Shown here: one piece after another, positions 11,557 to 52,511 of the stretch | Position numbering within the stretch: position 1 is the stretch's first letter | How the letters are laid out: each line of letters starts with the position of its first letter | From: Mediterranea massiliensis | GTDB taxonomy: Bacteria; Bacteroidota; Bacteroidia; Bacteroidales; Bacteroidaceae | Direction of reading: 5' to 3' | NCBI GenBank assembly: GCA_015060695.1 | Contig: SUYA01000009.1 | Span: forward strand, 31,893-95,892 | Length of the DNA stretch: 64,000 nt | Made by a program: the position numbers and the translations under genes | The notes under the pieces: generated by a model | Seen by the model: only the letters and a program-made list of their open reading frames with translations | Told to the model about the DNA's origin: nothing | Database searches by the model: none

Positions 11557-11976
11557 TTATGCTCCTACCAATGCCTCTATGGCCAATCGGTACGAATGAA
11601 GTCCGAATCCCAGTATCACACCCCGACAAGCACAAGAAATCATGGACTTATGCCGAAACTCCTCGCGAGCATGAACGTTGGAAATGTGTACCTCGATGAC
11701 CGGAGCAGTAATGGCTCGGATGGCATCTTGCAAAGCAATGGAAGTGTGTGTGTAGGCACCGGCATTCAGCACAATGCCGTCGATGTCAAATCCCACCTCC
11801 TGTATCTTGTCAATCAACTCGCCTTCGATGTTCGATTGGAAGTAATCAATCTCTACATCGACATATTTCTTGCGTAGTTCGGCCAAATAATCTTCGAACG
11901 TCACACTGCCATAGATGGAGGGTTCACGCTTGCCCAACAGGTTTATGTTGGGGCCGTTGATAATCTGTATTTTCAT
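11557..11976 (-). CDS. aroQ: Type II 3-dehydroquinate dehydratase
   Basis: KIQIINGPNINLLGKREPSIYG ... ITAPVIEVHISNVHAREEFRHKS. Confidence 0.95.
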   Translation of the reverse strand: MKIQIINGPNINLLGKREPSIYGSVTFEDYLAELRKKYVDVEIDYFQSNIEGELIDKIQEVGFDIDGIVLNAGAYTHTSIALQDAIRAITAPVIEVHISNVHAREEFRHKSMISCACRGVILGFGLHSYRLAIEALVGA

Positions 11977-12114: not shown

Positions 12115-12305
12115 CTCCGCACCTCGTTCGCTTTTGGGTCGCTTCTCGTTCGGAACTGCTTCGGTATTTGTTCGGTGTTTCTTCGGTGTTTCTTCGGTCG
12201 TTGTTCGGTCCTATAGAGAGCGAAGGATGACCGAAGAAACACCGAAGAACGACCGAACAGCGCGCGTACGCGTAGCGAGGATGGTACGACCCGAAAGCGA
12301 AGAAA
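12115..12305. repeat. Intergenic palindromic element, copy A, built from degenerate 11-nt units (TTCGGTSKTTS / SAAMSACCGAA)
   Basis: Left arm ttcggtatttg-ttcggtgtttc-ttcggtgtttc-ttcggtcgttg-ttcggtc, centre cctatagagagcgaa, right arm ccgaagaaaca-ccgaagaacga-ccgaacagcg; its reverse complement closely matches 45265-45475. Confidence 0.85.
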
Positions 12306-12374
12306 GTAGCATCGTGTTGAAAAAAACAGTATCTTTGCCCTGCGTTTACGAATTTGAGATTGGGATTTTGAAAA

Positions 12375-13304
12375 ATGGCAAACGAACGACAGAAACAGGT
12401 CATCAAGCGGTATCAGCAATACTTGCGGTTGGAGAAAGCACTTTCGGCCAACACGCTTGATGCTTATATGCGCGATTTGGAGAAATTACTTCGTTTCTTG
12501 GAGGCCGAAGGAATGAGTGTGTTCGATGTAACGCTGGACGACTTGCAACGATTTGCGGCCGGATTGCACGATGTAGGTATCCATCCCCGTTCGCAAGCCC
12601 GCATCATTTCGGGCATCCGCTCGTTTTTCCATTTCATGGTGCTGAGCGATGTGCAAGATGTCGATCCCAGCGAACTGCTTGAAGCTCCCAAGATAGGATT
12701 CAAGTTGCCGGAATACCTGACGGTGGAGGAAATTGACGCACTGATTGCCGCCATTGACTTGAGCAAGAACGAAGGGCATCGCAACCGGGCCATTCTGGAG
12801 ACGCTGTATAGTTGCGGCCTGCGGGTTTCAGAGCTATGCAACCTGAAGATTTCGAACCTGCACTTCAGACAAGGCTACATCAGAGTAGAGGGAAAGGGTA
12901 GCAAGCAACGGTTAGTACCCATTTCGAAGCGAGCCATACAAGAAATTGAAAAATGGTTTAAGGTGCGCCGCCACTGGAACATCAAGCCCGGCCATGAAGA
13001 TTTTGTTTTCTTAGCCCGTCGCGGAAATGCCATCGGCCGCATCATGGTTTTCCACCTCATCAAGGAGCTGTCCGAACAGGTAGGACTGAAAAAAAACATC
13101 AGCCCACACACCTTTCGCCACTCGTTTGCCACCCACCTGTTGGAAGGGGGTGCCAACCTACGAGCCATTCAAAGCATGCTGGGGCACGAAACCATTGCGG
13201 CAACCGAAATTTATGTCCATATTGACCGTAAACGGCTGCGTGAAGAGATATTAAACCACCATCCACGCAACATAAAGTACCGAAAAGAGCATGAATTTTA
13301 TTAA
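12375..13304 (+). CDS. xerD: Tyrosine recombinase XerD
   Basis: 309 aa; TLYSCGLRVSELCNL, SPHTFRHSFATHLLEGGANLRAIQSMLGH. Confidence 0.93.
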   Translation: MANERQKQVIKRYQQYLRLEKALSANTLDAYMRDLEKLLRFLEAEGMSVFDVTLDDLQRFAAGLHDVGIHPRSQARIISGIRSFFHFMVLSDVQDVDPSELLEAPKIGFKLPEYLTVEEIDALIAAIDLSKNEGHRNRAILETLYSCGLRVSELCNLKISNLHFRQGYIRVEGKGSKQRLVPISKRAIQEIEKWFKVRRHWNIKPGHEDFVFLARRGNAIGRIMVFHLIKELSEQVGLKKNISPHTFRHSFATHLLEGGANLRAIQSMLGHETIAATEIYVHIDRKRLREEILNHHPRNIKYRKEHEFY

Positions 13305-28631: not shown

Positions 28632-28829
28632 CCTTCCCGTTCGAAATATGCGCTCCTACCGAGCAAACTGCGCACCTTTACCGAACAAACTCCGCACGTC
28701 AACCGTGTTTGTTGCGTACATTCCCGGCAGAAACAGTGCACCTTTCCGGCGGAAACATACTATCTTTTGCCCGAAAAGATACTAACTTCTGCCTCAAAAG
28801 TTGGTATCTTCCTCCGAAAAGGGGTGAAA
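28632..28829. repeat. Nine tandem degenerate 22-nt units around CCG(A/G)(A/C)(A/C)AAA
   Basis: Contiguous 22-nt units at 28632, 28654, 28676, 28698, 28720, 28742, 28764, 28786, 28808, e.g. tcctaccgagcaaactgcgcac / ctttaccgaacaaactccgcac / attcccggcagaaacagtgcac / ctttccggcggaaacatactat / cttttgcccgaaaagatactaa. Confidence 0.75.
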
Positions 28830-45065: not shown

Positions 45066-45264
45066 TGGCACTATGAAGATGCCATGCAAACAAACACTGT
45101 TTAAAACACTGTATTTCAATCACACTACTCCTCTCCCCCTCTCCTACTTCAACCTGTTCAAAATGTCAAAGAGCTATTTGGTTTTAACGGGCCAGGACAG
45201 AACAACTGGGCTTGCCTCGTTTCGACTTAGTGGTCACCTGCTCAGTGCCTCTGCAGCAGCACTT

Positions 45265-45475
45265 GCCGGTGATTACTTCGCTTCCGGTTCGCTTCTTGGT
45301 CGCTCCTCGCACGCTACGTGTACGCACGCTGTTCGGTCGTTCTTCGGTCGTTGTTCGGTGTTTGTTCGCTCTCTATAGGACCGAAGAACGACCGAAGAAA
45401 CACCGAACAAACACCGAAGCGAGAGCGAACCAGAAGCGAGCCAAGTACGGCCGAGAAGCGAAGCGGATGTCCGGT
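45265..45475. repeat. Intergenic palindromic element, copy B (inverted relative to copy A)
   Basis: ttcggtcgttc-ttcggtcgttg-ttcggtgtttg-ttcgctctctatagga-ccgaagaacga-ccgaagaaaca-ccgaacaaaca-ccgaagcgaga; reverse complement shares cctatagagagcgaa and ccgaagaacgaccgaacagcgYgcgtacRcgtagcg with copy A. Confidence 0.85.
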
Positions 45476-45860
45476 GGCCCCTTGAGGGTAGCGTGGCCTT
45501 TGCTCTCCTCGCGGGACGTGCAAATATATAACACCACCCTTCGGTTATAGGTACTCGAAAACCGAAGTTTTTTCAAAATTAACAGTTGATAACATCGTAA
45601 CAGACTGTTTTTCAACAAAGTAAAAAATGAAAAAATAGTGATTCCGCAAATTTGTCAAGATACAAGAAAATCGGTATGATTATTTTACAAATAATTCCTA
45701 TTTCATCGCCCCAATCAAACGTGTTCACAAAAGAAGTAAATACGTCAAAATGATAGTAATGAAAAAATAGATTTTTAAGATAAAACCCTGTATTTATTAG
45801 GAAACTATTGATGGGTTAACATTATTTAATAATTATCACTTTATTTCACTGCTTACATAG

Positions 45861-52084: not shown

Positions 52085-52140
52085 GGATATGTTTTTAGCA
52101 TTTTTTTCCGTGGTTGCAAGCTACTCAAATCTTTCCACCT
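52085..52140 (-). ncRNA. Putative SAM-II/SAM-V-type riboswitch in the metK leader
   Basis: Minus strand GGTGGAAAGATTTGAGTAGCTTGCAACCACGGAAAAAAATGCTAAAAAC: GTGG/CCAC stem, GATTTGA loop, GCTTGCAACCACG and GCTAAA blocks. Confidence 0.7.
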
Positions 52141-52153
52141 TTGTTTTGCGCTG

Positions 52154-52184
52154 CAAAGATAGTGCAAGCCATCAGTAGAACAAA
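52154..52184 (-). promoter_or_regulatory. metK promoter (Bacteroides -33/-7)
   Basis: Minus strand TTTG-19 nt-TATCTTTG; predicted start lies just upstream of the riboswitch. Confidence 0.8.
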
Positions 52185-52394: not shown

Positions 52395-52472
52395 TACCTT
52401 TGCATCGTGTTTTTCATAGTATTAGATTTAAGGTTAACAAAAGGTTGGAGTACGGCGGTACTCCTTTTTTTA
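52395..52472 (+). ncRNA. Short free-standing transcription unit (candidate sRNA) with its own promoter and terminator
   Basis: TTG-19 nt-TACCTTTG (52395-52402), then gtgtttttcatagtattagatttaaggttaacaaaaggtt, then ggagtac-ggcg-gtactcc followed by ttttttt; no plausible CDS. Confidence 0.6.
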
Positions 52473-52511
52473 TTTCCTCGCTTCTAATTTATCTTAATTT
52501 TTTATCAATTA

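Follow-up and report, generated by a model that had tools for sequence, protein, structure and literature searches.

An intergenic quasi-palindrome of 11-bp units dispersed in the genome of Mediterranea massiliensis

The element in the aroQ-xerD gap

The window, i.e., the whole 64,000-nt stretch of M. massiliensis DNA analyzed here, contains a divergent gene pair formed by aroQ (11557-11976, minus strand), which encodes a class II 3-dehydroquinase (PF01220, E=2e-59), and a gene encoding a XerD-type tyrosine recombinase (12375-13304, plus strand; PF00589/PF02899). These are the left and right neighbors of a quasi-palindrome of 11-nt units, named copy A, that spans positions 12116-12304 with no strand assigned, and whose limits were taken from the alignment of its copies and from the 11-nt phase. 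Its core palindrome (12160-12259) is defined by the inverted repeats I1-I4 and by the direct units, and the -7 box of xerD, TATCTTTGC, is located at 12330-12338.

The left arm comprises nine units at 11-nt intervals (12116 to 12204) that start with TTCG or a near variant and are, in order, TCCGCACCTCG, TTCGCTTTTGG, GTCGCTTCTCG, TTCGGAACTGC, TTCGGTATTTG, TTCGGTGTTTC, TTCGGTGTTTC, TTCGGTCGTTG, and TTCGGTCCTAT. The right arm contains seven mirror units with the same spacing (12225 to 12301) that end with CGAA or a near variant. Both arms are separated by CCTATAGAGAGCGAA, and the center is the CTATAG hexamer (12211-12216) within CCTATAGA. The initial annotation had reported the units, the center, and the mirrored arm, and all of them were found in place; the phasing it described is also real, but it reaches further, covering the whole 12116-12304 interval.

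The 11-nt spacing, which had been proposed to be a meaningful pitch, is clearly distinguished from chance. The lag-11 identity is 0.59 in copy A and 0.65 in a second copy of the window, named copy B, far above the value of 0.25 +/- 0.03 obtained with dinucleotide shuffles, which gave <=0.42 at any lag. The arms of copy A pair in registers that are 11 nt apart, one with 42-nt arms that are 86% complementary around a 7-nt spacer and another with 40-nt arms that are 83% complementary around an 18-nt spacer, in agreement with the slippable hairpin previously suggested. RNA folding, which had been put forward as a check, yielded z = -7.6 for copy A. The view that the element belongs to no known family also held, since the Rfam scan of the window and 18 element loci gave no match to the element above the threshold, the sub-threshold matches being generic eukaryotic microRNA hairpins. 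A protein-coding origin was ruled out because the insertions of 11- and 22-nt units disrupt all frames.

The aroQ and xerD genes are divergent neighbors in the relatives too. Of 23 relatives measured, 22 have a gap of 28-151 nt vs. 398 nt here, and thus, the element is extra DNA at this site. The remaining relative, L096, has a gap of 289 nt that holds a 22-nt array of its own. In B. cellulosilyticus, B. timonensis, B. oleiciplenus, and one uncultured Bacteroides, the same gap carries a palindrome of 11-nt units TCCGTANNAAS whose center is also CCTATAGA, with its CTATAG. Matches to this palindrome amount to 8, 27, 19, and 19 in four genomes of this group, some of them representing both strands of one place. 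The aroQ-xerD gap of B. muris has a shorter 11-nt palindrome, and the B. muris genome gave 0 matches at the threshold. In the B. cellulosilyticus group the element sits between two facing -7 boxes, and thus, the two 5' UTRs would include it. Its position in the window species is upstream of the xerD box. The elements of this gap may derive either from one old insertion with a fast turnover of the units or from repeated insertion at one site. Separately, 11-nt-phased AT-rich repeats were observed just upstream of a promoter-like box at L260:15751-15807 and L291:15802-15857, being conserved between B. cellulosilyticus and B. stercorirosoris.

Copies in the genome and the type B subfamily

The genome searched is a 2.53-Mb draft in 28 contigs. 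The 22-nt core was found in 18 places at <=3 mismatches (0 with the reversed pattern), and a 19th copy is truncated by a contig edge (C5:7-47). This number is a lower bound because the draft is only 86.6% complete; moreover, the hairpins may break assemblies, at least one copy being cut at a contig end. The second locus noticed in the initial annotation does exist (45330-45430), but a count of two falls well short of the 18 complete copies and the one at the contig edge.

All copies are intergenic, their neighboring genes being arranged in divergent, tandem, and convergent settings. These neighbors are unrelated and mostly housekeeping genes (argS, ruvB, cdaA, methylmalonyl-CoA mutase, sdhB-like, and others), and thus, the element does not serve a single kind of gene as leader, attenuator, or terminator. 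Exact homologues were not found in 60 relatives, which share ~76% XerD identity or less, and the searched collections of viral and other genomes did not contain the exact core. A plasmid or phage origin was discarded, as the similarity search of plasmid and phage records gave no match.

The copies can be divided into two types. Type A, comprising the palindrome only, has five members (L032, L044, L045, which is copy A of the window, L047, and L048), and type B, with homology over ~530 bp, has 13 members (13-14 copies in all). That the palindrome is shared by a second locus of the window had been correctly seen, but not that this locus forms part of a subfamily of ~530 bp in which a promoter box and extra hairpins are present.

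The type B element of the window (L036 1314-1843) occupies positions 45177-45706 according to the homology among 13 copies, and is read on the minus strand, the direction of the candidate RNA. First in order is a conserved AT-rich island that contains a second conserved -7-like box, TAATTTTG (45574-45581, minus strand). There follows a partly compensated 10-bp palindrome (45540-45566) that, together with a T6 tract (45540-45573), looks like a terminator on the plus strand, but was not flagged by the terminator scan. Next come the -7 promoter box TATATTTGC (45520-45528, minus strand), a 5' stem-loop (45477-45517, minus strand), and the 11-nt-unit quasi-palindrome, i.e., copy B (45277-45462, no strand assigned), with its core at 45330-45430 and its CTATAG center at 45373-45378. 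In nine of the 13 copies the element also contains a 3'-side stem-loop CCACC..GGTGG (45234-45272, minus strand; TCACC..GGTGA in the window copy). The left ends vary among the copies, and no intrinsic terminator was found at the 3' side when the region 45100-45750 was scanned. Downstream of the type B copies L031, L034, and L041 there is a different intergenic repeat, with the sequence TTAGCTAACGCTCAAAACCTCTTATACTTTTTTCATTAAAGTATAGTGAGGAG or a near variant of it.

The TATATTTGC box fits the Bacteroides -7 consensus TAnnTTTG (PMC7366714) and is identical in 12 of the 13 type B copies, L041 having one mismatch (AATATTTGC); copy A lacks this box. The TAnnTTTGC motif appears 31 times in the window vs. 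15.8 expected. The window also encodes an FopS sRNA (52407-52474, plus strand), whose upstream -7 box (52395-52403) ends 4 nt ahead of the RNA, and a SAM-II riboswitch (52085-52144, minus strand) with a -7 box upstream at 52153-52161.

The 5' stem-loop has an invariant loop of 9 nt, AAAGGCCAC, and its stem is 97.7% paired and longer in L043 and L046. Two pairs show a double change, both from the single copy L042, which swaps them on both sides of the stem (GAGG/CCUC to GGAG/CUCC). The stem-loop model R1 matches only the type B copies; in the 60 relatives there were chance-level matches only, without the loop sequence. Many intergenic copies with compensatory changes had been named as support for a functional family, and the copies are indeed there, but the compensatory changes, found in this stem-loop adjoining the palindrome, are few.

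The mean identity between copies is 0.95-0.98 in the core and close to 0.9 over the stem-loop and the box, falling to background ~300 bp away, and the conservation of type B is highest over the box, the stem-loop, and the palindrome, decaying outward. Left-arm and right-arm variants occur in different combinations among the copies, generating mosaics (PHI test, p = 0.0005), and this shuffling indicates that the copies recombine. The arm length differs by whole units of 11 or 22 nt (L031, L046), and L048 has turned into a 22-nt array. There is no terminal inverted repeat common to all copies, since the left ends differ and the identity decays gradually. A target-site duplication was not seen by eye, the relatives being too diverged to provide a base-exact empty site, and no transposase matching the element was found in a search that covered reverse transcriptases, of which there were none, and Y1 transposases, represented by one RAYT. 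Thus, the spread of the copies is inferred from their distribution only. A retron/RT origin was rejected because the genome has no RVT_1 domain, as was mobilization by its single RAYT, which carries the REP GTAGGGGCACCCCTTGCGGGTGCCC, unrelated to the 11-nt units.

Arrays with a 22-nt period in the genus

The initial annotation had taken the 11-nt pitch as a property of the element, which is correct, but had missed that this pitch is shared with a genus-wide class of 22-nt arrays. In this genome and in G022, G021, G003, and G017, all of one genus, the commonest periods of non-coding tandem repeats are 22 and its double, 44. These five genomes contain 43 arrays at lag 22, whereas other lags average 0.00-0.17, and no lag-22 array was detected in 800 kb from seven genomes of other families of the order. 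Similarly, 60 records covering 1.05 Mb around xerD yielded 34 lag-22 arrays and 8 with a lag of 21, with few at any other lag; according to a count from the table, 29 of these 34 lag-22 arrays belong to records that bear the name Bacteroides or Mediterranea. In this census, ORF length was the only criterion for masking coding regions.

The units of the 22-nt arrays are often palindromic, with a best local dyad of 8.3 of 11 vs. 7.0 in shuffled units. The most enriched hexamer is CTATAG, found in 16 of 74 arrays from seven sources vs. 1.7 expected, these arrays not being fully independent, as units are common to arrays of one genome. The strand that folds better is not predicted by the strand of the neighboring gene (10:11), i.e., sense and antisense fold equally well. 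This lack of bias speaks against the 22-nt arrays being generally explained by selection on mRNA hairpins, a possibility that we have discarded, and favors a role at the DNA level.

The window itself contains two arrays with a 22-nt period (28650-28815, no strand assigned), and the units of the first one, ACCGAACAAAC and TCCGCACGTCA, are 11-mers that resemble the copy A/B family. A second family of 22-nt arrays, with unit CAACTACCTATAGGTAGTTG, each unit being a palindrome centered on CTATAG, is found in contig C24 of this genome at 6808, 152394, 179712, 247720, 270484, and 294662. Another family, TGCCA-N5-TGGCA, seems to be common to three species (C24:280481 of this genome, G022 C8:306700, and G021 C1 about 3744355). 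The open-access literature searched contained nothing pertinent on intergenic repeats of 22 or 11 bp in Bacteroides, and the class of intergenic repeats with a 22-nt pitch in this genus is apparently undescribed.

Interpretation and comparison with known systems

The arms of the quasi-palindrome are runs of 11-bp units, copies lie at many unrelated intergenic sites, and they exchange sequence and lengthen or shorten by 11-bp steps. We consider it somewhat better than an even chance that the element is an interspersed intergenic DNA repeat of the REP/BIME kind with a probably transcribed subfamily, type B. A constant 11/22-bp pitch would keep the units on one face of the helix, and such a pitch would most likely be read by a DNA-binding protein or during strand exchange, with spacing counting more than sequence. 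Judging from its promoter motif, a housekeeping-type -7 box directly ahead of the 5' stem-loop and the palindrome, type B is probably transcribed, and its product would be a long hairpin RNA of about 280-330 nt. As REP/BIMEs and the RAYT-associated REPINs, the element is intergenic, multi-copy, palindromic, mosaic, and species-specific in sequence. On the other hand, its arms are made of 11-nt direct units, its total length is 180-530 bp, its pitch is fixed at 11/22 bp, and the only RAYT of the genome has a GTAG-tagged REP (GTAGGGGCACCCCTTGCGGGTGCCC) to which the element is unrelated. The strong conservation of the core could be explained just as well by selection on an RNA.

An alternative is that the copies are a family of paralogous non-coding RNA genes, where type B would be the functional genes, type A promoter-less relics, and the RNA would act in trans through its invariant loop or as a double-stranded decoy. 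We regard this alternative as possible but doubtful. In type B, the -7 box precedes the stem by 3 nt, an arrangement similar to that of the FopS of the window, the 5' stem contains compensatory changes, and the conservation gradient is centered on the promoter and the putatively transcribed part. The left neighboring gene points in either direction, and thus, type B is not an mRNA leader. In addition, a 14-member family of paralogous sRNAs is known in B. thetaiotaomicron (PMC11697453). Type B shares with the FopS sRNAs of Bacteroides (PMC11697453, RF04319) that they are multi-copy and preceded by a -7 box, but FopS RNAs have about 70 nt and a seed region, whereas type B would produce about 300 nt with a long hairpin, and at the gathering score the RF04319 covariance model detected none of the 18 element loci and, in the window, solely 52407-52474. 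Against a family of RNA genes stand the lack of a detected 3' terminator, the inconstant left boundary, the four type B copies without the 3' stem-loop, the origin of both double compensations in one copy, and the five type A copies devoid of the promoter module; besides, the candidate RNA strand folds just ~2 kcal/mol better than the opposite one. If transcribed, type B would add a multi-copy family of long-hairpin RNAs to the few sRNAs known in Bacteroides.

A mobile, MITE-type element appears improbable, although there is a close parallel in the same order. BrickBuilt, a MITE of Porphyromonas gingivalis, has 19 copies with 23-nt repeats and bidirectional promoters (PMC4596501), and the element resembles it in being a Bacteroidales sequence with about 19 intergenic copies, a minisatellite within a larger element, and internal (here candidate) promoters. 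However, BrickBuilt consists of 23-nt head-to-tail units with a leader and a tail, an organization that the element does not have, and is bounded by ISPg1-like terminal inverted repeats, whereas the element mirrors 11-nt units around one center with no terminal repeat found. The gradual fading of identity from the core with no sharp end, the differing left ends, the lack of a visible target duplication, and the absence of similar plasmid and phage records also argue against it. We give very little credit to the idea that the copies act as bidirectional terminators or insulators between genes: their hairpins are very stable on both strands, and type B has a terminator-like palindrome and T6 on one side, but copies also separate divergent genes, as in the aroQ-xerD gap itself, a setting that does not require a terminator; the scan of type B found none; and 22-nt arrays are just mildly enriched in convergent gaps (13 of 42 vs. 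83 of 421 gaps). Taking together its REP/BIME-like behavior, the failure of both the RAYT-REP match and the search for MITE-like common termini, and the type B module, similar to a Bacteroides sRNA gene but with no terminator found, we have filed the element as a variant of the interspersed palindromic repeats.

Plasmid iterons have a pitch of about 22 bp, equivalent to two helical turns. The element class shares this ~22-bp pitch, but it is chromosomal, dispersed, and palindromic or mirrored, its units vary between arrays and species, and no Rep protein is known for it. A broader proposal, which we advance tentatively, is that Bacteroides has a class of intergenic arrays set by geometry rather than by sequence, with an exact 22-bp (2 x 11) pitch, palindromic or mirrored units that each species has of its own, often arranged around CTATAG, and dozens or more arrays per genome. 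A conserved system that reads spacing, either a protein or strand exchange, might maintain it, and the window element would be its single-turn 11-bp form, in part become a family of RNA genes. If the 22-bp rule holds, a major genus of the human gut would have an unremarked layer of intergenic DNA in which spacing is conserved and sequence is not, pointing to a so far unknown spacing-reading factor.

Two minor observations can be added. Direct 11-nt repeats CTCTAATCAAN, iteron-like in appearance, are located at a contig end of an uncultured Mediterranea (L278:19152-19228). Finally, the RAYT gene of this genome, which scores below the curated cut-off (L137:1141-1728, contig C4, ~26.4 kb), contains a perfect 25-bp GTAG-tagged inverted REP pair within its own reading frame.
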